This document shows positions 28,462 to 57,822 of a stretch of DNA of 64,000 nucleotides, piece after piece. Positions within the stretch are counted from its first letter, which is position 1. Every line of letters starts with the position of its first letter. A program made the translations under genes and the position numbers. The notes below the pieces were generated by a model that did no database searches, was not told the origin of the DNA, and saw only the letters and a list, made by a program, of their open reading frames with translations. Origin of the DNA: Brachybacterium sillae (lineage in GTDB: Bacteria; Actinomycetota; Actinomycetes; Actinomycetales; Dermabacteraceae); contig NZ_JAFEUW010000001.1 of the NCBI RefSeq assembly GCF_025028335.1, forward strand, positions 1,240,001 through 1,304,000, given 5' to 3'.

Positions 28462-28500
28462 GTGCCACCTCAGTACCACTGTCGGGAACAGACGCAGCAC
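28462..28500. repeat. Palindromic element copy 1
   Basis: A degenerate hairpin whose 3' arm begins GGGAACAGACGCAGCAC. The 21 bases at 28485-28505 recur exactly at 28568-28588 in copy 2. It lies downstream of the permease gene. Between 28415 and 28752 I find only these two elements and no gene. Confidence 0.65.
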
Positions 28501-28544
28501 CTCACTGCACCCTCGGACGCGCCCACGCATCCCCACCCCGCGAT

Positions 28545-28583
28545 GTACCGCTCCCGTTCCACTTCCTGGAACAGACGCAGCAC
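28545..28583. repeat. Palindromic element copy 2
   Basis: Arms of 17 bases (12 of 17 complementary, the inner GTTCCA/TGGAAC perfect) flank a CTTCC loop. Its 3' arm starts TGGAACAGACGCAGCAC. Same family as the elements at 28462, 29926, 52484 and 57784. Confidence 0.7.
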
Positions 28584-28752
28584 CTCACGAACCGCAGCCA
28601 TGTTGAGGTCCCTCACCGATGCGGACGCGGCAGACAGGACACTGCAGCGTCTGCCCTAAGGTTCCGGCGGGCGGGGAGACCATGCCACCGCCCCACGCCC
28701 ACTCCCCACGCCCCCACACGAGGAGGACTACCCGATCCCCCCGGGCGCCTCC

Positions 28753-29757
28753 TCAGCTCGCTACGCCTACCTCCCCGGCCCGCGCCAGAGCCCCACGCAG
28801 CCGTCGCAGGAACCGGAAGGGATTCCGCAGGTCGGCCGCCGTGATCCGCAAGACCACATACCCGAGCCGGTGCAGGACCTCATCCTTGTGTCGGTCACGC
28901 TGCCACTGACGTCGGTCCACCCGATGCAGGTCCCCGTCGTACTCGATGACCACGTGCACCGCGCGATAGAGCAGGTCCACGACGAAGACCTCGCGCGTGT
29001 CCGGGTCCACCACCACCACGTTCGTCTCTGGCTCCGGGAATCCCTCCTCGGCGAGCAAGAGCCGGACAGCGGTCTCCGCCGGCGACCACACCCGCTCCCT
29101 CGCCGCCTCGACCGCCGCCCGCACACGCCTGCTTCCCCTGCCCGTCAACGCAGTGGCTCGCTGCTTCAGCATCGCGAGCGGAACCAGGGGCGGGCCCGTG
29201 CGGTCGCTGACCAGAGCGTCGCAGCACTGCACCAGTTCCAGGTCCGTGAGCTTCCCGGAGATCTGCTGCAGAACCACCACGGGGTCGGCGATTTCCACAC
29301 CGTGATGGCGAAACGTGCGAGACGGCCGTCGAGAGTGCACCACGATGCGTGACCCGGCATGACCGGTCTGCGTGGAGGTCCGGGGGACCGTGCAGTGCAG
29401 GCGCGCCCCGCCCTCCCGTCGGAGGGACAGCGGCAGCGGGAGTCCCCAGAGCTCCGCCGCGGTGTCATCGCTGATCACGGCCCCGGGTACGACCTCAGTC
29501 TGGAGCACCTTGCAGACCTGCAGAAGAGAAGCGGGCGCGTCGGCACGGGTGCACCACCCGCGCATCGGCCGCAGCAGGGCATCGGAGGCGAGCACCCGGG
29601 GATGGATACCGCGCGCGCGAAGATCGCCCTGTGAGTACAGACGGCCCGGCGCCAGATCCGCGACGTCGCGGACCGGGGGCCCGTCGACGCGACGACTCGA
29701 GCCTCGGGTGGGGGCGGACCGGGTGAGGGCGGCCGGGGGTACGGGTTCAGCTGTCAT
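28753..29757 (-). CDS. DUF559 (Vsr/PD-(D/E)XK-like) domain protein with AbiEi-like N-terminal part
   Basis: A 334-residue protein common in actinobacteria. The C-terminal domain from about 235 has the restriction-endonuclease-like pattern: VDLLYRAVHVVIEYDGDLHR (catalytic-type Asp and Glu), then QRDRHKDEVLHRLGYVVLRI. The N-terminal half (RDVADLAPGRLYSQGDLRA, PGAVISDDTAAELWGLPLP) resembles the transcriptional-regulator-like region seen in AbiEi-type proteins. Function is unproven; no toxin partner is adjacent. TAGCGT six bases before the ATG indicates a leaderless transcript. Confidence 0.87.
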   Translation of the reverse strand: MTAEPVPPAALTRSAPTRGSSRRVDGPPVRDVADLAPGRLYSQGDLRARGIHPRVLASDALLRPMRGWCTRADAPASLLQVCKVLQTEVVPGAVISDDTAAELWGLPLPLSLRREGGARLHCTVPRTSTQTGHAGSRIVVHSRRPSRTFRHHGVEIADPVVVLQQISGKLTDLELVQCCDALVSDRTGPPLVPLAMLKQRATALTGRGSRRVRAAVEAARERVWSPAETAVRLLLAEEGFPEPETNVVVVDPDTREVFVVDLLYRAVHVVIEYDGDLHRVDRRQWQRDRHKDEVLHRLGYVVLRITAADLRNPFRFLRRLRGALARAGEVGVAS

Positions 29758-29763
29758 GCCGGC

Positions 29764-29769
29764 ACGCTA
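29764..29769 (-). promoter_or_regulatory. Leaderless -10 (TAGCGT) of the DUF559 gene
   Basis: TANNNT exactly six bases before the ATG at 29757. Confidence 0.5.
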
Positions 29770-29863
29770 GGGCCGGGCATGGAACGGTCGGGTGGGCGAC
29801 GGGCTCCCTGTGGATCGCGGCACCGTGGGGAGGAAAGGCCGGCCCCGGCCTCACAACCTGCCG

Positions 29864-29931
29864 CCCCACAACGGGCCCCGCCCCTCACGACGCACCGCCT
29901 CACAACCGGTCCCGCCCCCAACGACGCACCG
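29864..29931. repeat. Two 34-bp tandem repeats abutting palindrome copy 3
   Basis: Units 29864-29897 and 29898-29931 agree at 29 of 34 positions (CACAAC ... CCCGCCCC ... ACGACGCACCG). They directly precede, and partly form the 5' arm of, the palindrome at 29926. Confidence 0.75.
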
Positions 29932-29964
29932 CCCCAGTTCCCCATCTGGGAACTGAGGCGGCAC
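29926..29964. repeat. Palindromic element copy 3, possible metQ terminator
   Basis: Arms of 17 bases (14 complementary; CAGTTCCC/GGGAACTG perfect) around a CATCT loop. The 3' arm and following bases read GGGAACTGAGGCGGCAC then ATCACG. It sits 73 bases past the metQ stop. Confidence 0.7.
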
Positions 29965-30037
29965 ATCACGAAGGCCGGGAGACCGAGGCCCGGGGGCGTC
30001 GTGGGGCCCGCGACCGAGCCCCGTGCCCCCGCCCCTG

Positions 30038-30886
30038 TCAGAACGCCGGGATCACCGAACCGTCGGTGTAGGTCTCGGTGATGAACTTCTTGACCTCCTC
30101 GGAGTGCAGCAGCTCATCGAGCTTCTTCAGCCCCGCGTTGTCCTTGTCGGCCTCGCGGCACACCACGAGGTTCGCGTAGGGGCTGTTCTCACCCGGCTCC
30201 AGGAAGAGCGCCTGCTCCTTGGGGTTGAAGCCCGCCTCCAGGGCGTAGTTGCCGTTCACGGCACCCAGCGCGAAGTCGTCCAGCGAGCGAGCGATCTGGG
30301 CGGCCTCGAGGGTGGTGAAGGTGAGGTTCTTCGGGTTCTCGGCGACATCGGCCGGGGTGGCCTGGGCGACGTCCACCCCCTCCTTGAGGGTGATCAGCCC
30401 GGAGGACTGCAGCAGCCCCAGGCCGCGACCGGTGTTGGCCGGATCGTTGGCGATGGCGACCTTCGCCCCGTCCGGGACCTCCTCGAGGGAGGTCAGGGAG
30501 TTGGAGTACAGACCCATCGGCTCGATGTGCACGCCCTCGAAGGCGAAGAAGTCGTAGCCCTTCTCCTCCTCCTGCTGCTTCAGGAAGTTCGGGGTCTGGT
30601 AGAAGTTCGCGTCGATGTCACCGTCGTTCAGGGCCTGGTTGGGGATCTGGTAGTCGGTGTACTGGGTGATCTTGAGGTTCAGCCCGGCGTCCTTGGCCAG
30701 GTTGTCCTGCACGAACTTCAGGATCTCAGCGTGCGGCTTCGGGCTGGCGCCGATCGCGATCTCGGTGACGCCGTTCTCCTCCTCGGGGCCCTGGGCTGCG
30801 CCACCGCGGGCGCCGCAGGCGGCGAGAGTGACGGCGGCCAGGCCTGCGCCGGAGGCGAACAGGGTGCGGCGGGTCAGAGCGGTCAT
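30038..30886 (-). CDS. metQ: MetQ/NlpA family methionine-binding lipoprotein
   Basis: Extracytoplasmic receptor for the MetNI importer. Starting at the ATG at 30886 (AGGAG upstream) the 282-residue product has a twin-basic-like n-region, hydrophobic core and a LAAC lipobox. Mature-domain blocks ALNDGDIDANFYQTPNFL, AIANDPANTGRGLGLLQ and NGNYALEAGFNPKEQALFLE are typical of MetQ. It is separated from metI by 199 bases holding a short tandem repeat, so its expression may be adjusted separately from metNI. Confidence 0.95.
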   Translation of the reverse strand: MTALTRRTLFASGAGLAAVTLAACGARGGAAQGPEEENGVTEIAIGASPKPHAEILKFVQDNLAKDAGLNLKITQYTDYQIPNQALNDGDIDANFYQTPNFLKQQEEEKGYDFFAFEGVHIEPMGLYSNSLTSLEEVPDGAKVAIANDPANTGRGLGLLQSSGLITLKEGVDVAQATPADVAENPKNLTFTTLEAAQIARSLDDFALGAVNGNYALEAGFNPKEQALFLEPGENSPYANLVVCREADKDNAGLKKLDELLHSEEVKKFITETYTDGSVIPAF

Positions 30887-30948
30887 GGGGTTCTCCTGTC
30901 GGTCGGGGCGTCGCGGGTGCGGCACCCGAGGATGTGAGAGGTGGGTCG

Positions 30949-30990
30949 GATCGTGAGGGTCAGATCGTGGGGGTCAGATCGTGGGGGTCA
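30949..30990. repeat. Three 14-bp tandem repeats between metI and metQ
   Basis: Units GATCGTGAGGGTCA, GATCGTGGGGGTCA and GATCGTGGGGGTCA follow one another without gaps, with a partial fourth unit (GTTCGAGGGG). No gene fits in 30887-31085. Confidence 0.85.
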
Positions 30991-31085
30991 GTTCGAGGGG
31001 CCGGGCCGGCGGGGTCAACCCGCCGGCGTCGCGGCCCGGCCGAGCCGGATCGGAAGTCCCGGGGACGAGACGACACCGCGGGTGC

Positions 31086-31781
31086 TCACCTGCTCTGGGC
31101 GCGGTGGTCGACCTTCCGCGCCAGGGCGGTGCCCAGGGCCTGCACGGCGATCACGATCGCGATGAGCACCAGCACGGTCGCGATCATCACGACGTTGTCG
31201 TAGCTCTGGTAGCCCATGCGGATCGCGAGGTCACCGAGACCCTGCCCGCCGACGGCACCGGCCATGGCGGTATAGCCGATCACGGCGATCGCGGTGGTGG
31301 TGAGGGACCCGATGATACCGGGCAGCGCCTCCGGGAGCAGCACCTGCCGGATCACCTGCCAGCGGGAGGCACCCATCATCTGCACCGCCTCGATCTTCCC
31401 GGCGGAGATCTCCCGCAGGTTGATCTCGATCAGGCGTGCCAGGAACGGGATCGCGGAGATCGTCAGCGCGAACATCGCGGCGTTCGGGCCGGTCACACGG
31501 CCGACGACGAAGCGGGTCACCGGGATGAGCGCGATGATCAGGATGATGAAGGGGAACGATCGGCCGACGTTCACCACGAAGCCGACGACCCGGTTGATCC
31601 ACCGCGCGGCCGGGCTGGACGAGCGCGAGGTCTCGTACAGCGCGACGCCCAGCGGAATCCCGATCAGGGCGGTGAACAGCATGGTGCCGAGCGTCATGTA
31701 CAGGGTGATCAGCGTGTTCGACCACAGGCTGGTGTTCGGATCCCAGCTGGTGAACACCGGGTTGTCGAGGATCTCGTTCAT
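31086..31781 (-). CDS. metI: Methionine ABC transporter permease
   Basis: A 231-residue inner-membrane subunit with five to six spans. LYMTLGTMLFTALIGIPLGVALY at the N-terminus and the cytoplasmic coupling segment KIEAVQMMGASRWQVIRQVLLPEALPG (in blocks) are characteristic of MetI. Its start overlaps the metN stop by four bases (ATGA), so the two are translationally coupled. It works with metN and metQ. Confidence 0.96.
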   Translation of the reverse strand: MNEILDNPVFTSWDPNTSLWSNTLITLYMTLGTMLFTALIGIPLGVALYETSRSSSPAARWINRVVGFVVNVGRSFPFIILIIALIPVTRFVVGRVTGPNAAMFALTISAIPFLARLIEINLREISAGKIEAVQMMGASRWQVIRQVLLPEALPGIIGSLTTTAIAVIGYTAMAGAVGGQGLGDLAIRMGYQSYDNVVMIATVLVLIAIVIAVQALGTALARKVDHRAQSR

Positions 31782-32794
31782 CGGGTCGCCTCCTTCGCCA
31801 CCACACCGGCCTCACGCAGCTCGCCCAGGAACTTCTCCAGGCCGGGGCGGCTGATCGGCGAACCGTCGTTGTTCCGCAGGGCGATCTGCACGCGGCCCAC
31901 CTGGACCCCGGAGATCGTCTCGATCGTTCCCGCGACGATGGTGGCGCGGGTGTCGTAGGTGGCGGCGTGCGCCACGAGGTCCTGCGCCGAGTGGATGGTG
32001 GGGCTGCGGCCGTAGTCGCAGTCGACCATCACGTCGTCGACACCCGTGGGCGCCGGCGGCAGGGGGATCAGCTCGGAGGACAGCGGACCGGTCGGGTCGC
32101 TCGCGACGTCCAGCAGGGTGCCGGTCTGCACCACGCGGCCGTGCTCGAGCAGCGTCACCTCGTCGCAGATCTCCCGCACCACGCTCATCTCATGCGTGAT
32201 GATCAGGACGGTGATGCCCAGGCGGTCCCGCAGCCCACGGATCAGCTGCAGGATCTGGCGAGTGGTCGACGGGTCCAACGCACTGGTCGGCTCATCGCAC
32301 AGCAGCACCTTCGGCTCGGAGGCGAGACCGCGGGCGATGCCGACGCGCTGGATCTGACCGCCGGACAGCTGCGCCGGGTGGTTGTGCTCGCGACCCTCGA
32401 GGCCGACGAGGCGGATCAGGTCGCGGGCCCGCTGCTCCCGCTGCGCCCGGGGCACCCCGGCGATCTCCAGCGGGTGGGCGATGTTCTGCAGCGCCGTGCG
32501 GGAGTCCAGCAGGTTCGCGTGCTGGAACACCATGCCGATGTGGCGGCGGGCGGTGCGCAGGGAGGTGCCGCTCAGGGCTGCGATATCGGTGCCGCCGATC
32601 TCCACCCGGCCGGAGGTCGGACGCTCCAGGCCGGTGAGGCAGCGGATGAGGGTGGACTTCCCGGCGCCGGAGCGGCCCACGATGCCGTGGATGCTGCCGG
32701 CGCCGACGGTGAGGTCGATGCCGTCGAGGGCGACGACCGGCTCACCGCCGTCGGGCGCGGGGAAGACCTTCGTGAGGCCGTCGAGAGTGATCAC
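31778..32794 (-). CDS. metN: Methionine ABC transporter ATP-binding protein
   Basis: A 338-residue ATPase with the standard nucleotide-binding domain (GRSGAGKST, LSGGQIQRVGIARGL, VLLCDEPTSALDP, IITHEMSVVREICD) and the C-terminal NIL regulatory domain from about 265 (TYDTRATIVAGTIETISGV), which binds methionine and inhibits transport. The GTG at 32794 matches the family start (VITLDGLTKVF); a GTG at 32842 would add 16 atypical residues. Just upstream, TGTGA-N10-TCACA at 32824-32843 is a possible operator. No SAM riboswitch is recognisable. Confidence 0.94.
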   Translation of the reverse strand: MITLDGLTKVFPAPDGGEPVVALDGIDLTVGAGSIHGIVGRSGAGKSTLIRCLTGLERPTSGRVEIGGTDIAALSGTSLRTARRHIGMVFQHANLLDSRTALQNIAHPLEIAGVPRAQREQRARDLIRLVGLEGREHNHPAQLSGGQIQRVGIARGLASEPKVLLCDEPTSALDPSTTRQILQLIRGLRDRLGITVLIITHEMSVVREICDEVTLLEHGRVVQTGTLLDVASDPTGPLSSELIPLPPAPTGVDDVMVDCDYGRSPTIHSAQDLVAHAATYDTRATIVAGTIETISGVQVGRVQIALRNNDGSPISRPGLEKFLGELREAGVVAKEATR

Positions 32795-32981
32795 CCGTCC
32801 AGTGGAGCAGGTGAGGGCCACTCTGTGACCGTTTCTGTTCACATTCCGACACGATCAGGCCCCGAAGGTGCGGGAGATCACGACATGCGCGGGGGACGCC
32901 GGGTCGCGGACCTGCCGGCCCCGGTCCCGGCGACCCGTCCGACATCGTCAGCCGTCCAACCCCGGCGACCGCCCGGCACCG

Positions 32982-34028
32982 TCAGCCGCGGGCGCCCTGC
33001 GCGAAGCGCGCGTCGACCACGTCCGCGATGGTCACCGGCTGCGCAGCGGTGATCAGTCCGGCGTCGAGCCACACGTTCTGCATGGCGTCGAGCTGCTCCG
33101 GCTGCGGGGCGAGGTCCGGCAGGTAGGTGTACATCGGGGAGGCCCGGAGCACCTCCACCTTCTGCCCGGTGGCTGCCGCGAGGATGTCGTACACCTCGTC
33201 CGTCTGGGGGCCGTCGGTGGTGAGCTGCTGCGCCCCCTGGGTGAGGGCGGTGAAGAACGGCTGCGCGAGCTCCACCCCGAGGAACTGTTCCGAATAGACG
33301 ACGCCGGTGCCGGTGGTCCCCTGGCGGGGCACGGCCACGGTGGTCGCGATGCCGGCCTCCGCGATCGCCGTGGAGAACGGCGCCGAGGGGGTGGCGGCGT
33401 CGACCGAACCATTCTGCAGAGCCGCCTGTTGATCCGGCGTCGCGAGGTTCACCACCTCGACGTCCTTCAGCGTCAGACCCTCGCCCTCGAGCATCGACGC
33501 CAGCAGATAGCCGCCGGTCGCACCGGCGCCACCGGCCACGGCGATCTTGTGTCCGGCCAGACCCGCGACCGAGGTGATGGTGCCGTCCTCGATCAGCGCC
33601 TGACGCGCCATGAGGGCGGTGGGGGACGCCTCCGGATCACCCGGAGAGATCCCCATGGACCCGACGATCTTGAACGCGAGCCCCTCAGCCAGCGCGTTGA
33701 ACATGCCGGCGCTGAACCCCGCGACCATGACGTCGAGCTTCCCGGAGGCGAGCATCGGCACGCCGTCCTGCCCGGACTTCAATGGCACCAGCTCGAGGGT
33801 GATGCCGGCATCGGCGAAGCGCTTCTGCGCATCGGCGATGTACAGCGGGGCGAACAGGCTGGAGGGCAGGTGGCCGACGCGCACCGTGCCGGACGCGGCA
33901 CCGGCGCCGCCGCCGGAGCCGGATCCGGAGCCGCCGGCGTCCCGGCCGGTGATGGCGGGGCCGCAGGCGCTGAGGGCTCCGGCGGTGAGGGCGAGAGCGG
34001 AGGCGGAGAGCAGGGAACGACGACGCAT
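32982..34028 (-). CDS. NitT/TauT-type ABC transporter, substrate-binding lipoprotein
   Basis: A 348-residue SsuA/THI5-like binding protein. The signal peptide ends in a LSAC lipobox, followed by a Gly/Ser linker. Domain blocks VRVGHLPSSLFAPLYIADAQKRFADAG, MLASGKLDVMVAGFSAGMFNAL and VAGLAGHKIAVAGG are typical. Substrates in this family are sulfonates, taurine, nitrate or pyrimidine precursors; none can be singled out and no sulfonate monooxygenase is nearby. AGGAG precedes the ATG. A 26-base stretch overlapping the 3' end (32963-32988) has a near copy just downstream at 32928-32954. Confidence 0.9.
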   Translation of the reverse strand: MRRRSLLSASALALTAGALSACGPAITGRDAGGSGSGSGGGAGAASGTVRVGHLPSSLFAPLYIADAQKRFADAGITLELVPLKSGQDGVPMLASGKLDVMVAGFSAGMFNALAEGLAFKIVGSMGISPGDPEASPTALMARQALIEDGTITSVAGLAGHKIAVAGGAGATGGYLLASMLEGEGLTLKDVEVVNLATPDQQAALQNGSVDAATPSAPFSTAIAEAGIATTVAVPRQGTTGTGVVYSEQFLGVELAQPFFTALTQGAQQLTTDGPQTDEVYDILAAATGQKVEVLRASPMYTYLPDLAPQPEQLDAMQNVWLDAGLITAAQPVTIADVVDARFAQGARG

Positions 34029-34078
34029 GACGGACTCCTGTCAGGGGCGGAGGGATGCGGTGGGGCGGGCGGCGACGG

Positions 34079-34954
34079 TCACTGTCGCGCCCGCCAGGGG
34101 ATGAGCACGCGTTCCAGCAGTCCCAGCGCCCAGGTGAGCAGGGCGCCGATCAGGCCGATGGTCACGAGCCCGACGTACAGCTTCTCGGGGATGAACAGCT
34201 GCCAGGAGTTCCAGATCAGGTAACCCAGGCCCGTGGTGGAGGCCCCGGTGAACTCCACCGCGGTGATGACGACGACGGCGGTGCCGGTGGCGGTGCGCAG
34301 ACCGCTGAGCACGAACGGCAGCGCCCCGGGCAGCACCACGTGCCGAAACCGTGCCAGGCCGGTGGCCCCGTAGGCGCGGGCAGCCTCCAGCAGTTTCGGG
34401 TCGAGCGCCCGCACCCCGGCGACGGTGCTGATCTGCAGCACGAAGAAGGTGGTGATGAACACCGACAGCAGCTTCGGGATCTCGGTGGGCCCGAAGATCA
34501 TCAGCAGGATCGGGAAGATCGCGATCTTCGGCAGCGGGTACAGCGCGGCGAACAGCGGTCCGAAGGCGGCGTTCAGAGCGCGGCTGGTGCCCATGACCAG
34601 GCCGACGACGATGCCGGCGAGCGCCCCCAGGCCCCCGCCGACCAGGAGCCGCAGCAGCGTCGGCCCGGTGTGTCGCCACAGTTCCCCGTCGGCGATCATC
34701 CCGGCGCCGGCGCGGAGGATCGCGGTCGGTGCGGGGAAGAACCGCGGGTCGATGATCAGCAGGCGCGCGCACACCTCCCACAGCAGCAGCAGGCCGATGG
34801 GGGTGGCGACGGCGAGCGCGGCGTCCCGTCGGCGCAGTCGGTTCTCGCGGGTGCGCAGAGCGCGGGCGGCCTCGAGGGTGCGGCGCTCCCTCTCGACGAG
34901 GCGGTCGGCGTGCTCCGCGGCGGAGGCGGAGGTGGGGGGAACGGGGGTGTTCAT
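34079..34954 (-). CDS. NitT/TauT-type ABC transporter permease
   Basis: A 291-residue SsuC/TauC-like permease with a charged, coiled-coil-prone N-terminus (about 15-50, rich in Arg/Glu) and six spans after residue 50. PLPKIAIFPILLMIFGPTE and the coupling loop LLEAARAYGATGLARFRHVVLPGALP are diagnostic. It overlaps the upstream ATPase by four bases. The same operon supplies the binding protein 50 bases downstream. Confidence 0.94.
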   Translation of the reverse strand: MNTPVPPTSASAAEHADRLVERERRTLEAARALRTRENRLRRRDAALAVATPIGLLLLWEVCARLLIIDPRFFPAPTAILRAGAGMIADGELWRHTGPTLLRLLVGGGLGALAGIVVGLVMGTSRALNAAFGPLFAALYPLPKIAIFPILLMIFGPTEIPKLLSVFITTFFVLQISTVAGVRALDPKLLEAARAYGATGLARFRHVVLPGALPFVLSGLRTATGTAVVVITAVEFTGASTTGLGYLIWNSWQLFIPEKLYVGLVTIGLIGALLTWALGLLERVLIPWRARQ

Positions 34955-35787
34955 GCGTTCTCCTCCGTCCACCGGTTCTCCTGCCGCAGTGATTCCCAGA
35001 TGTGGGTGCGCAACCGGGTGAACTCCGGGTCCTGTTCGATCCGTCGCGTGCGGGGCCGCGGGAACGGGACGGTGATGTCCTCGGTGATGCGTCCGGGCCG
35101 CGGCGACAGCACGATGATCCGGTCGCCGAGGATGATCGCCTCGTCGATGTCGTGGGTGACCATCAGCACCGTCGTACGCTCCGCCTCCCACAGGGCCAGC
35201 AGTTCCTCCTGCATGAGCATGCGGGTCTGGGCGTCGAGCGCGCCGAGGGGTTCGTCCATCATCAGCACCGGGCTGCCGGTGGCGAAGGCGCGGGCGATGG
35301 CGACACGCTGGCGCATGCCGCCCGACAGCTGGTGCGGGTAGGCGCGGTCGAAGTCCTGCAGCCGCACGCGGGTGATCCATTCGCGGGCCACGGCCTCCCG
35401 CTCGCCGCGCGCCATCCCGGCCATGCGCAGACCGAAGGCGACGTTCTCGAGCACCGTCATCCACGGGAAGACCCCATGCTCCTGGAACACGAAGGCGGCG
35501 CGCACGGTGTGTCCGCCGCCGTCGAGGGCCACGGTGCCGCTGGTCGCCTCCTCGAGGCCACCCATGATCCGCAGCAGGGTGGATTTGCCGCCGCCCGACG
35601 GGCCGACGACACACGTGAAGGACCCCGGGGCGAGGTCGAGGGAGACGTCCTCGAGTGCCCACACGGGCTGGTCGGCGGTGGAGAAGAAGACCTTGGAGAC
35701 CCGGTCGGCGCGGACTGCGGGGGCGGTCGCCGACGCAGGCGCGGTCGCGGCGCCCGCAGGGGCGACGTCCGAGGGGCGGTCGGTCAC
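34951..35787 (-). CDS. NitT/TauT-type ABC transporter ATP-binding protein
   Basis: A 278-residue ATPase. Walker A is GPSGGGKST, Q-loop FVFQEHGVFPW, signature LSGGMRQRVAIARAF, Walker B VLMMDEPLGALD, switch His in MVTHDIDEA, with the C-terminal SPRPGRITEDITVPFPRPR tail typical of SsuB/TauB. The GTG at 35787 has AGGAGG eight bases ahead; upstream in-frame codons lack family resemblance. First gene of ATPase-permease-SBP. An Ala/Pro-rich leader of about 30 residues precedes the domain. Confidence 0.93.
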   Translation of the reverse strand: MTDRPSDVAPAGAATAPASATAPAVRADRVSKVFFSTADQPVWALEDVSLDLAPGSFTCVVGPSGGGKSTLLRIMGGLEEATSGTVALDGGGHTVRAAFVFQEHGVFPWMTVLENVAFGLRMAGMARGEREAVAREWITRVRLQDFDRAYPHQLSGGMRQRVAIARAFATGSPVLMMDEPLGALDAQTRMLMQEELLALWEAERTTVLMVTHDIDEAIILGDRIIVLSPRPGRITEDITVPFPRPRTRRIEQDPEFTRLRTHIWESLRQENRWTEENA

Positions 35788-35960
35788 GGGCGGCACCTCC
35801 TGGCGCGGGCGGACACCGCCCGGCGGGCGGCAGGATGGGCCCACGATACGGGGATTCTCACGGCTCGGGACGGCCGACCGGCATGCGGTCACGCAGAGCG
35901 CCCGGGGCAGCGACGGGCGGTGTCCCGATGGCTGTCACCGGGGCGAGACCTGCTCCCTGG

Positions 35961-36515: not shown

Positions 36516-36522
36516 GGTGACG

Positions 36523-36528
36523 AGGGTA
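36523..36528 (-). promoter_or_regulatory. Leaderless -10 (TACCCT) of tadA
   Basis: TANNNT seven bases before the ATG at 36515. Confidence 0.5.
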
Positions 36529-36619: not shown

Positions 36620-36625
36620 CGCCGC

Positions 36626-48098: not shown

Positions 48099-48104
48099 GA
48101 GCGC

Positions 48105-50409: not shown

Positions 50410-50415
50410 CCGCCC

Positions 50416-50421
50416 AGGATA
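50416..50421 (-). promoter_or_regulatory. Leaderless -10 (TATCCT) of the 190-residue hypothetical gene
   Basis: TANNNT six bases before the ATG at 50409. With the opposing TACGCT at 50436 it makes a 38-base divergent promoter region. Confidence 0.5.
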
Positions 50422-50435
50422 GGCGCGGAATCCAC

Positions 50436-50441
50436 TACGCT
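50436..50441 (+). promoter_or_regulatory. Leaderless -10 (TACGCT) of the GNAT gene
   Basis: TANNNT six bases before the ATG at 50448. Confidence 0.5.
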
Positions 50442-50447
50442 CCCGGC

Positions 50448-51080: not shown

Positions 51081-51126
51081 ACGCAGAGCGGTGCAGGAGC
51101 GAGGGGCGCGGCCGCGAGGGGCACCA

Positions 51127-51180
51127 CGCACGTCGGCCCGACCACTCGCGCGTTGGCCCGGCGACCCGCACGTCGGCCCG
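51127..51180. repeat. Three repeats at exact 20-bp spacing upstream of the LLM oxidoreductase
   Basis: CGCACGTCGGCCCG, CGCGCGTTGGCCCG and CGCACGTCGGCCCG begin at 51127, 51147 and 51167. They end 20 bases before an AT-rich palindromic promoter region. Confidence 0.8.
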
Positions 51181-51200
51181 GGAATGTTGCAACCCACGCT

Positions 51201-51217
51201 GTAGTTGAATATTCTAC
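51201..51217 (+). promoter_or_regulatory. AT-rich palindromic promoter/operator of the LLM oxidoreductase gene
   Basis: GTAGTTGAATATTCTAC contains the perfect palindrome GAATATTC and GTAG/CTAC ends. TTGAAT-type palindromes of this kind are typical of MarR-family operators; the TATTCT inside could serve as -10. No MarR gene is adjacent. Confidence 0.5.
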
Positions 51218-51315
51218 GACTATCTCGCGGTGGCGTGGCACCCCGGGCCGATCTCTCCGGGCCCGGTGCCCGACCCCCGCCAGCGCCACCCCTCGACCAC
51301 TCCCAGGAGGTCACC

Positions 51316-52359
51316 ATGAGCGAGACCACCACCCGCCCCCTCACCTTCGGACTCGACACCTTCGGTGACACCACCGTCGGCCTCGACGGCACCCCGCTCA
51401 CCCACGCCCAGGTGCTGCGCAACGTCATCGCCGAAGGCGTGCGCGCCGACCAGGTCGGCGTCGACCACTTCAGCGTCGGCGAACACCACCGCCCCGACTT
51501 CACCATCAGCGCGCCCGACACGGTGCTCGCGGGCCTGGCCACCGTCACGGAGAACATCACCCTCGGCACCGCCGTGGTGGTGCTCAGCTCCGACGATCCG
51601 GTGCGCGTGTTCGAACACTTCTCCACCATCGACGCCCTCAGCAACGGCCGCGCCGAGATCACCCTGGGCCGCGGCTCCTTCACCGAGTCGTTCCCCCTGT
51701 TCGGCTTCCAGCTGCAGGACTACGAGAAGCTGTTCGAGGAGAAGCTCGATCTGTTCGTGAAGCTGCTCCCGCAGAAGCCCGTGACCTGGTCCGGCACCAC
51801 CCGGCCACCGCTGACCGACCAGCGCGTCTACCCCGAGATGGAGCGCACCCTGCCCACCTGGGTGGCCGTCGGCGGCAGCCCGAACTCCGTGGTCCGCACC
51901 GCCTCCCACGGCCTCGGCCTGCGCCTGGCGATCATCGGCGGCCCGGCCGAACGCTTCGCCCCGTACGTGAACCTGTTCCATCAGGCCTCCGAGCAGCTCG
52001 GCAAGGGAGCTCTGCCCGTGGCCGTGCACTCACCCGGCCACATCGCCGACACCGATGCCGAGGCGATCGACCAGCTGCGCGACGCCTGGATCATGAACCG
52101 CAACAAGATCGGTTCCGAGCGCGGTTGGGGCCCCAGCGGTGAGGCCGAATACCAGGCGGAGATCCAGGGCGGCAGCCTGTACGTCGGCAGCCCCGAGACC
52201 GTCGCCCAGAAGATCGCCCGCACGATCGACCTGCTGGGGCTCGACCGCTTCGACCTCAAGTACTCCACCGGCACCGTGCCGCACGAGCACCTCATGCACT
52301 CGATCGAGTTGTACGGCACGGAGGTCATCCCCCGGGTGCGGGAGATCCTCGGCCGCTGA
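51316..52359 (+). CDS. LLM class (luciferase-like) flavin-dependent oxidoreductase
   Basis: A 347-residue bacterial-luciferase-fold protein. VGVDHFSVGEHHRPDFTISAPDTVLAGLA near residues 50-78, GRAEITLGRGSFTESFPLFG and WVAVGGSPNSVVRTASHGLGLRLAIIGG are typical of the putative FMN-dependent group often annotated as LLM oxidoreductases. Substrate unknown; these enzymes use reduced flavin to hydroxylate or oxidise small molecules. AGGAGG five bases before the ATG is an ideal ribosome site. Upstream repeats and an AT-rich palindrome suggest dedicated control. A strong palindrome follows. Confidence 0.93.
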   Translation: MSETTTRPLTFGLDTFGDTTVGLDGTPLTHAQVLRNVIAEGVRADQVGVDHFSVGEHHRPDFTISAPDTVLAGLATVTENITLGTAVVVLSSDDPVRVFEHFSTIDALSNGRAEITLGRGSFTESFPLFGFQLQDYEKLFEEKLDLFVKLLPQKPVTWSGTTRPPLTDQRVYPEMERTLPTWVAVGGSPNSVVRTASHGLGLRLAIIGGPAERFAPYVNLFHQASEQLGKGALPVAVHSPGHIADTDAEAIDQLRDAWIMNRNKIGSERGWGPSGEAEYQAEIQGGSLYVGSPETVAQKIARTIDLLGLDRFDLKYSTGTVPHEHLMHSIELYGTEVIPRVREILGR

Positions 52360-52483
52360 CGCCGGCGGGGCTGGCGCCGGGCGCATCCCCCATGCCGTGC
52401 CCACCCGGCGCCGCCCCGTGCGCACCAGGCCCCGCCCCGTGCGCGATATGCGCGCCCGCTCCCGCCCCCGCCCTCGCCCCGTG

Positions 52484-52536
52484 CGCGATGTGCGCGCCTG
52501 GTTTCCAGTACGTGGAAACCAGGCGCGCACATCGCG
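52484..52536. repeat. Palindromic element copy 4 (perfect 24-bp stem) between convergent genes
   Basis: Arms 52484-52507 and 52513-52536 pair over all 24 positions around a GTACG loop; the tip is CTGGTTTCCA/TGGAAACCAG. The upstream GTGCGCGATATGCGCGC at 52438-52454 nearly repeats part of the 5' arm. It may terminate both the LLM gene and the converging hydrolase. Confidence 0.85.
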
Positions 52537-52583
52537 ACATCGGCTCGGGAATCGGCGCACCCGCACTGCCCCGTCCCGCGGCG

Positions 52584-53585
52584 TCAGTGTCCCTCGGCGC
52601 CCCCGGGCAGCGGGAAGGTCAGCGGGGCCTCGCACAGCCCCAGGTGGCCGCGCACGGCCTCGATCTGCGCCCGACGCGCGTACTGCACGGACGCTCCGCC
52701 GGGAAGGAACGGATGGTTGTGCACCCCGCCGGGCACCTCCACGTACTCGACGTCCACACCCGCGGCCACCAGGGCATCGCGCAGGCGACGGGAGTCACCG
52801 AGCAGGAGGTCGCGGTCCCCGGCCAGCAGGTGCACCGGCGGCAGGCCGCGCAGGTCGGCGAACAGCGGGCTGACGCGGGGATCGGACTCATCGAGCGACC
52901 CCGCGTACACCCGGGCGGCGCGCTGCAGGTTCTGGGCGAGCATGGCGGGCTCGCGCTCCTGCTGCACGGGTCGCAGCGGATCCGTGCCGGTGAGGTCGAC
53001 CCACGGGCTGGTCAGCACCAGGGCGCGCGGCAGCTCCAGGCCGCCGTCGCGCAGCGCCACGGCGGTGGCGAGAGCCAGGCCGGCGCCGGCGCTGTCGCCG
53101 GACAGCACCCAGCGCCCCTCGCGCACGGTCGTCTCCCGCACCATCGCCTGGAGGGCGTCGAGGGTGTCGTCGAGGGCGTACGGGTAGGGGTGCGCGGGCG
53201 GCATCCGGTAGTGGACCATCGCGGCGGCGGCACCGGTGCGGCGCTGCACCTCGGCGAGCCAGTCCCAGGTGGTGGCGTTCTCCCCGTGCACGTAGCTGCC
53301 TCCGTGCAGGTGGATCAGGGCACCGGCGCCCGCGAGGTCGCGGCGGATCCACGTGACGGGGGTGCCGCCGAGGCGTTCGCGGGTGACCTGGGCGGCCGGC
53401 ACGAGACGACGCGAGGGTGTGCTGGGTCGGTGGGTGCGGCGCGCCCACTGCGCCATGAGCTCCTGCGGCAGGAACGCCCGCACACGCGAGGAGAGGCGGC
53501 CCCGTCGAGCGGGGGCGATCTCGCGGTCGGTCACGGGCGGGATGGTGTCGTCGGTGACGTAGTGCGGGTGGGCGCTGGGGCTCAT
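52584..53585 (-). CDS. Alpha/beta hydrolase, hormone-sensitive-lipase-like esterase
   Basis: A 333-residue esterase. The oxyanion motif HGG lies in LIHLHGGSYVHGENATTW, the nucleophile in VLSGDSAGAGLALATAVAL, the acid in LAGDRDLLLGDS and the His in VPGGVHNHPFLPGG. This is the HSL/bHSL pattern of short-chain acyl esterases. No signal peptide. ATG at 53585 is preceded by GATCAT at six bases, a relaxed leaderless element. It lies 100 bases from the MFS gene on the same strand. Confidence 0.92.
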   Translation of the reverse strand: MSPSAHPHYVTDDTIPPVTDREIAPARRGRLSSRVRAFLPQELMAQWARRTHRPSTPSRRLVPAAQVTRERLGGTPVTWIRRDLAGAGALIHLHGGSYVHGENATTWDWLAEVQRRTGAAAAMVHYRMPPAHPYPYALDDTLDALQAMVRETTVREGRWVLSGDSAGAGLALATAVALRDGGLELPRALVLTSPWVDLTGTDPLRPVQQEREPAMLAQNLQRAARVYAGSLDESDPRVSPLFADLRGLPPVHLLAGDRDLLLGDSRRLRDALVAAGVDVEYVEVPGGVHNHPFLPGGASVQYARRAQIEAVRGHLGLCEAPLTFPLPGGAEGH

Positions 53586-53685
53586 GGCGTCATGATCGCA
53601 CGGTGGGGTGACACTGCGGGGAGAGCCGACAGGGTGACCCGGCACCGGCAGCCCACGGGTGCCACCGCAGCGGTCGACGCATCCC

Positions 53686-54996
53686 TCAGCGCGCCTGGGC
53701 CAGCTCATCGTCGACGACCACAGGGGCCGCGGCGCGCAGCCCCACCAGCCCCAACAGCAGCCCCGACCCGGCCAGCAGCCCGAGCACGAGAGTCGTCGAG
53801 CCGGTGGCGGCGAGCACCGCCCCCGCTCCCAGCGGCATCAGCGCCGCGACGATGTACCCGAGCGGCTGCACCATTCCCGACAGTCGCGCGGTGATCTCCG
53901 CCGACCGGCTGCGCGCCGGGATCAGCGCCAGCACCGTCGGGAAGGTGAAGCCGCCCAGCCCCAGCATCACCGCCCACAGCAGCGCCCCCGCGTGCGGGGC
54001 GAGCAGCAGCCCCACATATCCCCCGGCGGTGAGAAGCCCGAACAGGCCGCAGAGCGCCCGCAGGTGCCGCGAGCGGTCGATCACCACCGGCATCACCAGA
54101 CCGCCGACGATGCCCAGCCCCGCGACCACTGCGAGCAGCGCCCCGGAGGCGGCCGGCCCGATCCCGGCGTCCGCGTACAGCCGCGGCAGCCACCCGAACT
54201 GGGTGTACGCGTTGCCGGACTGCAGAGCGAACAGGGCGGTCAGTGCCACCGCGGTCGGAGCCCGCAGCAGGGTCCGACGTCCGTCGGTGCGGCCCACGGC
54301 GCGGGGTTCGGCCGGCGGGAAGTCGTGGCCGGCACGGCGCAGCACCACGACGGCGAGCAGCATCGGCACCACCGCGGGCAGCACCCACCACAGCAGCGAC
54401 AGACGCCACCCCTCAGGGGTGTCGGGGGCGAGCGGCACCGCCAGCAGCGACGCCAGGAACGCGCCGGCGGAGAGCACCGAACTGTAGAGGGTCATCAGGG
54501 CCACGCGATGGCGGCCACCGTGGACCTTGATCCACGCGGGCAGTACCACGTTGCCGAGCGCAGGTCCGGCGAGCGCCAGCGCGCTGAGCGGCAGAAACAG
54601 CCCCATATCGCCGACGCGGGTGCGCACGCTCCCGGCGACGACCAGAAGCAGCATGGCGAGCACCAGGGCGCCGGTGAGGCCGGTGCGACGGGCCAGCGGC
54701 ACCGCCGTCAGGCCGGCGAGGCCGAACACCAGGCAGGGCAGGGCGGTGAGGGCACCGGCAGAGAGGTCACTGGCACCGAGGGAGGTGGTCAGGGGCTCGA
54801 GGAGGGGTCCGACGGCTGCGGCGGCCGGGCGCAGCATGATCGCGAGGGACGCGACCACCAGGACGATGAGCAGCGGCGGGAGGGCACGGCCGCCGCGGGG
54901 CGTCGCGCGGGAACGGGATGCGGTGTCTACACCGGGGGTCGTACGGGCGGAGCGCGGGTGATCGGTCGGGGGCACCGAGGGGGTCACGGAGGGCAC
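53686..54996 (-). CDS. MFS transporter, CynX/NimT type
   Basis: A 436-residue, 12-span transporter. MLRPAAAAVGPLLEPLTTSLGASDLSAGAL and LGNVVLPAWIKVHGGRHRVALMTLYSSVLSAGAF (in blocks) resemble the CynX/NimT family, whose members move cyanate, nitroimidazoles or other small anions. An Arg/Pro-rich cytoplasmic leader of about 38 residues precedes span 1. The GTG at 54996 has TAGAAC six bases ahead. Divergent from the SRPBCC gene. Confidence 0.92.
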   Translation of the reverse strand: MPSVTPSVPPTDHPRSARTTPGVDTASRSRATPRGGRALPPLLIVLVVASLAIMLRPAAAAVGPLLEPLTTSLGASDLSAGALTALPCLVFGLAGLTAVPLARRTGLTGALVLAMLLLVVAGSVRTRVGDMGLFLPLSALALAGPALGNVVLPAWIKVHGGRHRVALMTLYSSVLSAGAFLASLLAVPLAPDTPEGWRLSLLWWVLPAVVPMLLAVVVLRRAGHDFPPAEPRAVGRTDGRRTLLRAPTAVALTALFALQSGNAYTQFGWLPRLYADAGIGPAASGALLAVVAGLGIVGGLVMPVVIDRSRHLRALCGLFGLLTAGGYVGLLLAPHAGALLWAVMLGLGGFTFPTVLALIPARSRSAEITARLSGMVQPLGYIVAALMPLGAGAVLAATGSTTLVLGLLAGSGLLLGLVGLRAAAPVVVDDELAQAR

Positions 54997-55111
54997 CGCA
55001 CAGTTCTACCGGTTCGGCGCGCGCCTCGTCGCCGGTGGCCAGGGGATGCCGCCCCGTCACGCCGTCCCGCCGCGCACCGGGTGAGTGCCGCCACCCCGAA
55101 GGCTCAGCCCC

Positions 55112-55582
55112 ATGAACACGATCGACGTGCGCCGCGAGCGCCTCATCGCCGCCCGCCCCGAGGTGGTGTGGTCCGTCCTCACGGATCTGGAGAACGCCAC
55201 CACGTTCCTGTCGGGTGTGGAGTCGGTCGAGGTCCTCACCCCCGGCCCGTACGCCGTCGGCACCCGCTGGCGGGAGACCCGCTCCATGCTGGGCATGCGC
55301 GGTACCGAGGAGATGCAGGTGGTGGAGGTCGACGCCCCGCACCGCACCACGGTCACGGCCGCCCACAAGGGCACGCAGTACCGCTCCGAGTTCCTGCTGG
55401 AGCCGGTGCCCGGGGATCAGACCAAGCTGACGACGGTGTTCGGCGCCTCGAGCCCGGCCCGCACCGGGGCCCTCGCGATGGTCGGACGGGCGCTCGGTGC
55501 CCTGGGGATGCGTGTGACGACGAAGGCGATGGACACCGATCTCGCCGATATCGCCGCGGAGGCGGAGCGCCGAGCCCGCTGA
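55112..55582 (+). CDS. SRPBCC (START-like) family protein
   Basis: A 156-residue polyketide-cyclase/START-like protein: RRERLIAARPEVVWSVLTDLENATTFL, VLTPGPYAVGTRWRETR and a C-terminal helix MVGRALGALGMRVTTKAMDTDL. Ligand unknown. The ATG at 55112 is chosen over an upstream GTG (55085) because family members begin close to it. It converges on the acyltransferase gene with 28 bases between stops. Confidence 0.87.
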   Translation: MNTIDVRRERLIAARPEVVWSVLTDLENATTFLSGVESVEVLTPGPYAVGTRWRETRSMLGMRGTEEMQVVEVDAPHRTTVTAAHKGTQYRSEFLLEPVPGDQTKLTTVFGASSPARTGALAMVGRALGALGMRVTTKAMDTDLADIAAEAERRAR

Positions 55583-55610
55583 TATCAGCAGGCCCGTTCG
55601 GGGCCTCCCC

Positions 55611-56705
55611 TCAGCCCTCGCGGCTGGCCACCAGTCCGGTGCGCCAGATCGTTGCGTACAGCCACGGCATCCACCGTCGGGCGATGATCCACAGCACCAG
55701 CGGCGCCGCGACGCCGACCACGGTGCCGGCGATCAGGTGCACCCAGGGGTGCGTCACCCCCGCCATGCCGAGCGCCACCCGGGAGCCGGCGGTCGCGATG
55801 ATGTGCGGCAGGTAGATCTGCAGGGACGTGCGCCCGCAGTACGCCAGGGCGCGCCGCACCGCGGGAATCGTCCGCGACACCGCCCCGACCAGCATCACCA
55901 GAGCAAGCCCGCTGACCACGGTGCCGGCGACCCCCGCCGCCAGACCTGCGACCGTGCGCGCGATCGACGGCTCCGACGGGATGAGCGTGCTGGGCGGCAC
56001 GGCCAGGGCGACCCAGCCGACCAGGAGCGCGAGACCGCCGGCTGCGAGCACTGGCAGCGGCGTCCGACCGGCGAAGGCCTCCACCCGCGCGGCACCGATC
56101 ACCGCACCGAGCATCACGAACACCAGCAGCGGCAGCACCTGGATCGCGATGATGCCGCCCACCGCACCCCAGGTCAGCAGCGACAGCGCAGCCGCGACGG
56201 CGAGCGCCCCGGCCGCGCGGGCGCGGGACCTCCACGGGGCCACGGCCGCCGTCAACAGGCTCGCCACCAGGATGAACGGCAGGAACCACAGGTGCCCCAC
56301 CGGGTGGGTGAGGTCGGCGACCTGCCCCCAGGTGGTCGGCACGTTCTTCACGGGGCTGGTGAGGACCTCGACGGTGCCCTGCAGCAGGGTCCACAGTAGG
56401 AACAGGTAGCCGAGGGTCTCCACCCGGTTGCGGCTGAAGGCGCCGAGGCCGCGGGAGTCGACACTGCGCGGGATGAACGTGCCGGCGATCAGCGCGAACA
56501 TCGGCATGTGCACCAGGTACAGGGCGCGGTCGAGCACGCCCCAGGCGGTCCCGTCGGCCGACACCAGACCGGCCGCGAACAGGCCGCGCAGCACATGGCT
56601 CAGCACCACCAGGAGCATGGCGCTGCCACGGACGGCGTCGACCAGGTCCAGTCGACCGGTGCCTGAGCCACTGCGCCCGGTGGTCGGGGCCGAGCGCGGT
56701 GTCAC
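55611..56705 (-). CDS. Acyltransferase 3 family membrane protein
   Basis: A 364-residue protein with ten or so spans. RLDLVDAVRGSAMLLVVLSHVLRG carries the family's Arg and His active-site motif (R..A...V.LSH), LYLVHMPMFALIAGTFI and LWFLPFILV follow. Family members acylate cell-surface sugars or lipids. Start problem: the GTG at 56705 has no ribosome site, whereas a GTG at 56733 has GGGAGGAA seven bases ahead and matches in sense (VTSTPTPP) but is separated by a seven-C run at 56706-56712; six Cs would join the frames. Slippage at this run would switch the gene. Confidence 0.87.
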   Translation of the reverse strand: MTPRSAPTTGRSGSGTGRLDLVDAVRGSAMLLVVLSHVLRGLFAAGLVSADGTAWGVLDRALYLVHMPMFALIAGTFIPRSVDSRGLGAFSRNRVETLGYLFLLWTLLQGTVEVLTSPVKNVPTTWGQVADLTHPVGHLWFLPFILVASLLTAAVAPWRSRARAAGALAVAAALSLLTWGAVGGIIAIQVLPLLVFVMLGAVIGAARVEAFAGRTPLPVLAAGGLALLVGWVALAVPPSTLIPSEPSIARTVAGLAAGVAGTVVSGLALVMLVGAVSRTIPAVRRALAYCGRTSLQIYLPHIIATAGSRVALGMAGVTHPWVHLIAGTVVGVAAPLVLWIIARRWMPWLYATIWRTGLVASREG

Positions 56706-56829
56706 GGGGGGGCGGAGTCGGGGTGCTGGTCACGGGCGTTCCTCCCGGGCGGGCCTGAGATGCCGCGTGCCGGGAGGCCTGCGGCGGCTTGATCCTAGGC
56801 GACCCCCTGTCGGCGCCTGCTCTTCCGCC

Positions 56830-56835
56830 TACCCT
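56830..56835 (+). promoter_or_regulatory. Leaderless -10 (TACCCT) of rarD
   Basis: TANNNT six bases before the GTG at 56842. Confidence 0.55.
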
Positions 56836-56841
56836 TCCGGG

Positions 56842-57786
56842 GTGAGCCAGACCCGTGACGAGACCGCCCGGGGAACCGCGTACGGGTTCCTCGCCTACGT
56901 GCTGTGGGGCGTGTTCCCCCTGTATTTCCGCCAGCTGCTGCCCGCCGGTCCGTGGGAGATCGTGGCCCACCGGATCCTGTGGGCGTTCGTGGTGTGCGCG
57001 CTCGTCATCGTTCTGCGCCGCGACCTGGGGTTCGTCCGGCCTCTGCTGGCCGATCCCCGCCGGGCATTGCTGGTGGTGCTCGCGGGGCTGGCCGTCGGGG
57101 CGAACTGGTTGATCTACGTGGTCGCCGTGAACAGCGGCCACACCTCGGAGGCGGCGCTCGGGTACTTCCTGAACCCGCTGGTGACGATCGCGCTCGGGGT
57201 GCTGGTGCTGCGGGAGACCCTGCGCCCGCTGCAGTGGGCGGCCGTCGCGATGGGCACGGCGGCCTGCCTGTTCCTCACGATCGCCCGGGGCACCGTGCCG
57301 TGGATCGCCCTGGGTCTCGCGGTGAGTTTCTCCGGGTACAGCCTGCTGAAGAACCGTCTGGGGCCCCGTCTCACCGCCTTCCGCTCGCTCGCGGCGGAGA
57401 CGACGGTGCTGCTGCCCGTCGCCGCGATGATCCTGGTGGTGGTCGAGCTGCAGGGCCGCACCACGTTCGGCAGCGGCGCCGGGAACTCGGTGTGGATGGC
57501 GTCGAGCGGCATCGTCACGGCGATCCCACTGCTGTTGTTCGCTGCGGCAGCCGCCCGGGTGCCGCTGGTGACGATCGGGCTGCTGCAGTTCCTCACCCCG
57601 GTGATGCAGCTGCTGGTGGCGGTGTTCCTGCTCGGGGAGCAGGTGCCGACGGTGCGGTGGTTCGGCTTCGCCCTGGTGTGGGTGGCGCTCGCGCTGCTCA
57701 CCACGGATTCGGTGCGGGCGCACCGGGTGCGGCGCCGGGCCGCGCGGCTGGGGTCGGCTTCCGACGGCTCCGACGTCGCATTCTGA
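56842..57786 (+). CDS. rarD: EamA family transporter RarD
   Basis: A 314-residue, ten-span DMT-superfamily protein. GTAYGFLAYVLWGVFPLYFRQL, EIVAHRILWAFVV, NWLIYVVAVNSGHTSEAALGYFLNPL and FSGYSLLKN are the RarD blocks; the name comes from chloramphenicol-related work but substrate is unknown. The GTG is fixed by a leaderless TACCCT element. Its stop codon is the first base triplet of a palindromic element. Confidence 0.95.
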   Translation: MSQTRDETARGTAYGFLAYVLWGVFPLYFRQLLPAGPWEIVAHRILWAFVVCALVIVLRRDLGFVRPLLADPRRALLVVLAGLAVGANWLIYVVAVNSGHTSEAALGYFLNPLVTIALGVLVLRETLRPLQWAAVAMGTAACLFLTIARGTVPWIALGLAVSFSGYSLLKNRLGPRLTAFRSLAAETTVLLPVAAMILVVVELQGRTTFGSGAGNSVWMASSGIVTAIPLLLFAAAAARVPLVTIGLLQFLTPVMQLLVAVFLLGEQVPTVRWFGFALVWVALALLTTDSVRAHRVRRRAARLGSASDGSDVAF

Positions 57787-57822
57787 CGCGTTCACTTCCA
57801 CTCCGTGGAACGGAACACGTCA
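57784..57822. repeat. Palindromic element copy 5, starting at the rarD stop codon
   Basis: Arms of 17 bases (14 complementary) flank a CTCCG loop; the inner TTCCA/TGGAA is perfect. The 3' arm TGGAACGGAACACGTCA is more divergent from the other copies. Confidence 0.6.

Follow-up and report, generated by a model that had tools for sequence, protein, structure and literature searches.

Palindromes bordering DUF559 nuclease genes in Brachybacterium: a candidate counterpart of REP/RAYT systems

A DUF559 gene and five palindromes in a Brachybacterium window

We analyzed a stretch of 64,000 nucleotides (nt) with 72% G+C (G000:C1:1240001-1304000, hereafter the window) from a 2.67-Mb Brachybacterium genome, called the own genome and labeled G000 (G-numbers are genome labels, and L-numbers are locus labels). 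The window holds a gene for a DUF559 nuclease of 334 amino acids (28753 to 29757, minus strand), whose neighbors read as an amino acid permease and a MetQ-like protein, and five copies of a palindrome, none of them assigned to a strand. Copies 1 (28462 to 28500) and 2 (28545 to 28583, loop CTTCC) lie to the left of the nuclease gene and copy 3 (29926 to 29964, loop CATCT) lies to its right, in the 3' spacer of the metQ-like gene, and together they bracket it. Copies 4 (52484 to 52536, loop GTACG) and 5 (57778 to 57828) are solo palindromes; the former has convergent genes on either side, and the latter overlaps the stop codon of rarD (end of the open reading frame [ORF] at 57786).

These five stem-loops had been picked out in an earlier description of this DNA (the original prediction), which gave their places and the loops CTTCC, CATCT, GTACG, and CTCCG correctly and rightly had copy 5 begin at the rarD stop codon. 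Its arms of 16 to 17 nt or more were too generous for copies 1 (decayed) and 2 (partly decayed), where hand counts from pairing strings give about 11 pairs in 16 positions and 12 in 17, respectively, whereas copy 4 does have perfect arms of 24 base pairs (bp). Copy 5 was well located but is longer than the segment from 57784 to 57822 first given for it, with outer pairs extending beyond those ends and 20 of 24 positions paired. The five had also been taken for a single family; the family is real, but they are a mixture of three subfamilies told apart by eye, with copies 1 to 3 in subfamily c (1 bp shorter, GTTCC end), copy 4 in subfamily a (TGCGCGCCTGGTTTCCA), and copy 5 in subfamily b (TGACGTGTCTGCTTCCA). 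At Rfam gathering thresholds, no copy matched any family, and a single tRNA was all that was reported in the window.

The palindrome family exceeds chance. In the own genome, TTCCA-N5-TGGAA has 12 occurrences and a reversed control has none, and two of the 12 sites (L001, which is tRNA-like, and L003) are without extended pairing by eye. A search with a model made from the copies (R1) recognized at least 20 clear places in the own genome, the weakest at 45.4 bits on its better strand and the next candidate at 19 bits; this number is a lower bound because 150 of 1,957 first-look candidates were scored. Within the window, copies 1 to 3 scored 50.7 bits (G000:C1:1268448-1268515), 60.2 bits (G000:C1:1268531-1268598), and 58.3 bits (G000:C1:1269912-1269979), and copies 4 and 5 scored 75.2 and 63.1 bits. 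The best copies have the tip TTCCA/TGGAA, and pairing is complete over 24, 27, and 29 bp in the best three, the longest including one G-T. In an alignment of 12 copies (A1), 52 cells had changed on both sides, versus 24 in shuffles. Among 30 genus-wide copies (A3), 90.5% of the cells pair and 177 had changed on both sides, versus 62 in shuffles, in line with the covarying arms of the original prediction; the loops vary among these copies, and the TTCC/GGAA tip is nearly fixed, being broken in one row only. Multicopy extragenic palindromes with covarying arms are what that prediction had called REP-like (REP, repetitive extragenic palindrome), and this part of it was right.

When the pattern CTGTGCTTCC-N5-8-GGAAGCACAG was run against a named genome collection, 9 of the 11 matched contigs came from Brachybacterium. 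A broader model (R2, built without subfamily c) found the family at an E value of ≤0.01 in at least 28 of the 38 genomes of the genus, with at least 61 rows over both strands, or about 30 copies, in G016, and with none among the scored candidates in 10 genomes. Across the order, 24 of 198 genomes matched R2 at E ≤ 0.001, 9 of them in the genus. The matches in the other 15, with one to four rows each, are long hairpins close to gene ends, most of them with a TTCC tip, and we do not claim them for the family.

The predicted placement at gene 3' ends held: the 20 own copies comprise 9 between convergent genes, 11 between tandem genes, and none between divergent genes, and none lies inside a called gene, with one overlapping a stop codon. 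Among 20 loci of other species, 12 were convergent, 5 tandem, and none divergent, 1 (L065) lay inside a called ORF, and 2 were unclassifiable. For comparison, the 37 window spacers longer than 30 bp comprise 4 convergent, 23 tandem, and 10 divergent ones, with gene starts taken from script estimates.

DUF559 genes between matching palindromes

The original prediction had suggested looking for a REP-associated tyrosine transposase (RAYT; Y1 transposase). A PF01797 search was negative for the own genome and matched 5 of 14 control genomes, and a RAYT partner was rejected. Unforeseen, DUF559/Vsr-like genes between matching palindromes stand in the RAYT's place. The own genome has two PF04480 (DUF559) matches in total, and both have family palindromes on either flank: the window gene is bracketed by subfamily c, and the second match (1884998 to 1885147) is bracketed by subfamily b, with palindromes at 1884850 and 1886122.

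DUF559 is cataloged as a "protein of unknown function." The C terminus of the window protein matches it above the Pfam cutoff (E = 5.1e-6) and corresponds to a Vsr-like/PD-(D/E)XK domain; a match to REase family MTES_1575 (E = 2.8e-6) falls below that family's cutoff. Three PADLOC matches were obtained, all weak, among them one of the N-terminal half to AbiEi (E = 0.0011). In an alignment of 32 proteins (A4), S225, E228, T229, E272, D288, and R304 are invariant, and D261, D274, and G299 are among the positions conserved at 90% or more. The AlphaFold2 model of the window protein has a pLDDT of 90.7 and a pTM of 0.86. When it was compared with solved structures by Foldseek, the second and third rows were the catalytic domain of the EDxHD homing endonuclease I-Bth0305I (3r3p; probability, 1.00; TM score, 0.77 to 0.78 over the target; E = 0.011 to 0.016), with PvuRts1I, AbaSI, and TnsA in lower rows, and a profile search with A4 gave 3r3p (E = 6.4e-6), 3hrl (E = 1.1e-5), and PvuRts1I (E = 0.05). 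I-Bth0305I is the best credible match to a solved fold for the nuclease domain.

DUF559 matches occurred in all 38 genomes of the genus (120 rows, many below the Pfam cutoff). We studied 91 of these loci (31 from the searches and 60 fetched), leaving out 29 weaker rows, and 84 of the 91 had both flanks. A hairpin scan found matching long hairpins on both sides of the gene at 25 of the 91 loci. When the 700-nt left and right flanks were compared directly, a shared segment scoring ≥40 was found for 47 of the 84 DUF559 genes, and one scoring ≥34 was found for 58, fractions that contig ends at DUF559 loci may have lowered or otherwise biased. Flank pairs drawn from different loci reached these thresholds in 3.3% and 7.5% of cases, and control genes did so in 6 and 8 of 141 cases. 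The six controls at ≥40 (L265, L228, L231, L248, L072, and L272) were all kept in the count, including L248, where the gene sits between family palindromes, and L072, where a DUF559 gene counted before appears a second time. Among control genes from loci picked regardless of palindromes, 1 of 98 scored ≥40 and 9 scored ≥34, with one positive (L349) retained in the 98. As a rule, the 58 best shared segments are palindromic (median hairpin score of 34 versus 17 in random stretches), and the shared palindromes differ in sequence from nuclease to nuclease. We call palindrome, gene, and palindrome together a module; the median span is 1,374 nt (n = 37) around a gene of about 0.9 to 1 kb, and among the 36 modules with both neighbors called, 25 sit between convergent neighbors, 11 between tandem ones, and none between divergent ones.

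The same arrangement was seen beyond the genus. DUF559 matches were present in 57 of 149 Actinomycetota genomes, and 52 of 56 phylum loci had both flanks. Of these long-form DUF559 genes from outside the genus, 23 of 52 reached 40, whereas shuffled pairs did so in 0.3% of cases and control genes in 1 of 45; the 23 include L311, L331, and parts of L297 and L323, which by eye resemble longer duplications or coding similarity more than single palindromes. At L290, near-identical palindromes with arms of 22 to 23 bp lie on both sides of the gene. From these sequence comparisons, we hold with high confidence that palindromes and DUF559 genes are associated.

Palindrome type and nuclease type also go together. 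Among 37 modules, palindrome similarity tracks protein identity (rank correlation, 0.25; none of 2,000 permutations as high), and strong palindrome similarity was found in 1 of 626 pairs below 50% protein identity, in 3 of 19 pairs at 50 to 60%, and in 7 of 21 pairs above 60% (counts derived from printed fractions). A TTCC-tip module is present at 11 of the 91 loci. In a tree of the 81 of 91 proteins that were long enough, which included 9 of the 11, all 9 fell into one clade of 42 rows, and the label required 6 changes, versus 8.7 when shuffled (none of 500 shuffles as low). Genomes with a TTCC-tip module (n = 10) had a median of 22 R2 rows, versus 2.5 in the 28 genomes without one (Mann-Whitney P = 2.5e-5, uncorrected for relatedness). 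The sequences compared show that related nucleases tend to carry more similar palindromes.

An all-against-all comparison of loci, together with reading of the sequences, revealed two clear orthologous spacers in which a solo palindrome of one species corresponds to a module of another. At L134 (G029), the solo palindrome has 20-nt arms identical, allowing a one-base shift, to the palindromes of that genome's own nuclease (L222), and the orthologous site L225 (G020), with flanks 84% identical to those of L134, has a module whose palindrome is related yet different. At L163 (G006), R2 recognized a solo palindrome (35.8 bits), and L228 and L240 hold a module there with another palindrome type. 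A third candidate pair, L249/L265, was dropped because the L249 palindrome (1075 to 1123) scores only 31 against the L265 module and another DUF559 gene lies at L249 1878 to 2816.

Proposed role of the nucleases and competing explanations

We propose, with somewhat more confidence than doubt, that the palindromes serve as DNA sites for homing-type DUF559 nucleases of EDxHD/Vsr-like fold, which maintain or spread them. We favor this proposal because of the matching flanks, the pairing of types, the covarying arms, the preference for convergent gene ends, the solo/module sites, and the conserved acidic positions. The autonomous unit would be palindrome, nuclease gene, and palindrome, about 1.4 kb in all, and the scattered solo palindromes would be gene-less copies, either products or targets, as REPs are to REPtrons. 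The N-terminal part of the protein may read the palindrome and the C-terminal domain may cut at or near it, as a duplex, a cruciform, or a replication fork hairpin; host repair could then copy the palindrome or the whole module into the break. Cutting and spreading by DUF559 nucleases are steps that we infer.

The arrangement is closest to that of REPtrons, described in passages of PMC3733652, PMC8266576, and PMC6006769 as a repeat-flanked gene whose enzyme is of the Y1 type and whose repeats bear a GTAG tag. As far as those passages go, the two share multicopy extragenic palindromes with a dedicated enzyme gene between them, several classes of repeat that each have a separate enzyme, close doublets, and patchy, species-specific copy numbers. 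They differ in the enzyme, which is a DUF559 PD-(D/E)XK/Vsr-like protein here and Y1/HUH in REPtrons; no conserved GTAG or CGTC was seen by eye at the stem foot in A1 and A3, and well-preserved Brachybacterium copies are longer (about 53 to 63 nt) and nearly perfect. Passages of PMC3733652 also report CGTC REPs without a dedicated transposase, as well as TIRtrons, which resemble the modules in having a single enzyme gene flanked by palindromes or inverted repeats but, in the description given there, carry a tyrosine transposase in place of a DUF559 nuclease.

Other likenesses concern the protein. The catalytic domain of I-Bth0305I agrees in fold and sequence profile, with acidic residues conserved within A4; its Protein Data Bank entry, however, names the molecule "Mobile intron protein," whereas the DUF559 gene is free-standing between palindromes and its product has a weakly AbiEi-like N-terminal half. 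PvuRts1I, AbaSI, and Tn7 TnsA appear as partial, weak matches in the lower ranks of the fold search, PvuRts1I also in the profile search, but no methyltransferase or Tn7 partner was recognized among the window ORFs adjoining the DUF559 gene. The N terminus weakly resembles the antitoxin AbiEi of AbiE type IV toxin-antitoxin systems; these differ from the window locus, where the protein has a C-terminal nuclease domain and the neighbors read as a permease and a MetQ-like protein rather than a toxin, although no search was aimed at AbiEii. Taken as sequences, the modules look like an independent evolutionary parallel to REP/RAYT, a REPtron-like system whose nuclease is unrelated and of homing type. 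We give an even chance to the wider idea of "homing palindromes," an unrecognized class of Actinomycetota mobile elements in which a free-standing EDxHD/Vsr-like nuclease coevolves with a palindromic site that borders its gene and that is seeded around the genome at convergent gene ends. If true, homing palindromes would be a cutting-only convergent counterpart of REPtrons and a source of transposase-less REP-like palindromes. We found no description of the pairing of DUF559 with palindromes in the open-license PubMed Central literature, judged partly by title.

Several results weigh against our proposal. In the genus, 37 of 84 DUF559 genes, and elsewhere in the phylum 29 of 52, have no shared flank segment at 40, for which decay, contig ends, other paralogs, or a lack of association are possible explanations. 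Many of the 98 control genes from loci picked regardless of palindromes are orthologs of a few genes. Two of seven short stand-alone DUF559 loci (L274 to L280) reached 40: at L275, the shared segment is a short C/G-run repeat, and at L280 (G355:C1 near 2293730), the flanks of the short DUF559 gene contain several TGTTTCACGTGAAACA sites, which we take to be parS-like, in what is probably an origin-near region. None of L274 to L279 has a long flanking hairpin. No solved structure was matched by Foldseek at E ≤ 0.001, and a mitoribosomal protein headed its list (E = 0.009; TM score, <0.21; root mean square deviation, 14 Å). Only 21 of 43 solo palindromes best matched a module of their own genome, with about 7 expected if eight modules were equally likely. 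In the own genome, 9 of 15 solos best matched an own module, 1 was tied, and 5, all of subfamily a, resembled a module of another species; we count these five as adverse, and such a resemblance would be expected of orphans of a lost nuclease, without being proof of that. In this comparison, copy 3 alone represented module c, since copy 2 is without a usable core, and the solo L385 likewise has no core. We obtained no clean target site duplication and no palindrome-free empty site with exact ends. Finally, we know of no PD-(D/E)XK nuclease that joins DNA, and any spread would therefore need host repair.

The strongest competing explanation, which we nevertheless think unlikely, is that the palindromes are bidirectional terminators whose hairpin is selected as RNA and that nuclease genes merely land in such spacers. 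The convergent and tandem placement of the own copies, the convergent neighbors of 25 of 36 modules, and the good RNA folding of copies 3, 4, and 5 (z versus shuffles, -4.4, -11.3, and -5.4) all suit a terminator; copy 1 (+0.73) folds no better than its shuffles, and copy 2 (-2.1) is marginal. However, no T-run terminator was found in the window from 28300 to 30200, and by eye there is none at copies 4 and 5. In 18 tandem copies, a small sample, the transcribed strand shows G-U 22 times and A-C 18 times. Over 47 hairpins, Watson-Crick pairs fill 984 of 1,128 cells, and G-U (36) does not exceed A-C (43), so that the pairing looks DNA level rather than RNA level. A terminator would, moreover, leave the match between left and right palindromes within a module and their difference between nucleases unexplained, and the tip TTCC/GGAA is almost invariant although the loops differ. 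The lack of T-runs at 28300 to 30200 and of a G-U excess weakens a terminator-only explanation, on small numbers, and since the palindrome also tracks the nuclease, the structured terminator that the original prediction had offered as an alternative is not favored as an explanation for the family. Transcription may still end at some of the copies.

More doubtful is a role as operators, in which the AbiEi-like N-terminal part would repress its own promoter and solo palindromes would be decoys or other targets. Binding to inverted repeats is a property of AbiEi-type antitoxins, both own nuclease genes have a palindrome upstream, and the N-terminal match, weak as it is, points the same way; against this, the palindromes flank the gene on both sides, about 30 copies per genome are reached (in G016), and divergent spacers account for 0 of 20 own copies and 0 of 17 classifiable intergenic copies of other species. 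It is improbable, too, that the palindromes were left behind by an ordinary inverted-repeat transposon or miniature inverted-repeat transposable element with an unrelated transposase, the DUF559 gene being cargo: the layout of repeat, gene, and repeat and the gene-less copies would fit, but one gene family lies between dozens of differing palindromes, palindrome similarity tracks DUF559 relatedness as is not expected of cargo, and the gene occupies most of the median span, with little space for a transposase. Least probable of all is a defense or toxin-antitoxin unit in which the palindromes would label self DNA or titrate out the nuclease, since the AbiEi-like N-terminal half and the presence of Vsr-like nuclease domains in the restriction enzymes PvuRts1I and AbaSI are set against three weak PADLOC matches and solo palindromes that vary widely in number and place among species, with none among the scored candidates in 10 of 38 genomes.

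Should the pairing of DUF559 nucleases with palindromes be causal, it would give a large protein family both a substrate and a biological role, it would imply at least two origins of REP-like systems on unrelated enzymes, and dozens of nuclease/site pairs of differing specificity would be ready for in vitro tests. Even without mobility, a gene family that is often bracketed by gene-specific palindromes calls for explanation.

Further observations on the palindromes and DUF559 loci

The 20 own copies are confined to positions 724107 to 2205299 (0.72 to 2.21 Mb) of a 2.66-Mb contig, the first 0.72 Mb and the last 0.46 Mb being empty, which could reflect a replication terminus bias. Close doublets about 80 to 140 bp apart, comparable to REP/BIME (bacterial interspersed mosaic element) pairs, are present in the window (28462 to 28583), in G019 (C1:2974084 and 2974223; C1:3568914 and 3569041), and in G016 (C1:2625754 and 2625895). 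Two further long hairpins in the window are unrelated in sequence to the TTCC family: one at 8455 to 8497, with perfect 20-bp arms and a 3-nt loop, and one at 19282 to 19339, with 28-nt arms that are 82% complementary.

Draft contigs stop close to the DUF559 gene at L216, L218, L229, L236, L306, L325, and L327, as would be expected if flanking palindromes break assembly. At L228, nine tandem CACCCG hexamers (2836 to 2889) lie between the DUF559 gene and the right palindrome. A search of a plasmid collection with the window protein at E ≤ 0.001 gave two Arthrobacter relatives only, at 30 to 32% identity (NZ_CP012477.1, 213038 to 213871; NZ_AP024649.1, 546274 to 546963).

We also compared the region downstream of the metQ-like gene at 28 loci, including the own locus (L367 offered only 31 nt). 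R2, which lacks subfamily c, matched at the own locus only, and downstream neighbors differ among the loci; many of them are not the same spacer, because the next gene differs between species. A hairpin scan showed a TTCC-tipped hairpin of 19 bp with different arms at L350 and a palindrome with an ATAT loop at L365; apart from L355 and L359, the remaining loci have other hairpins or none. L355 and L359 share a different long palindrome at the metQ-like 3' end (arms around GGCCAGGTTCTATGACAGAAAG), which may be a solo counterpart of the palindrome that goes with a different nuclease.

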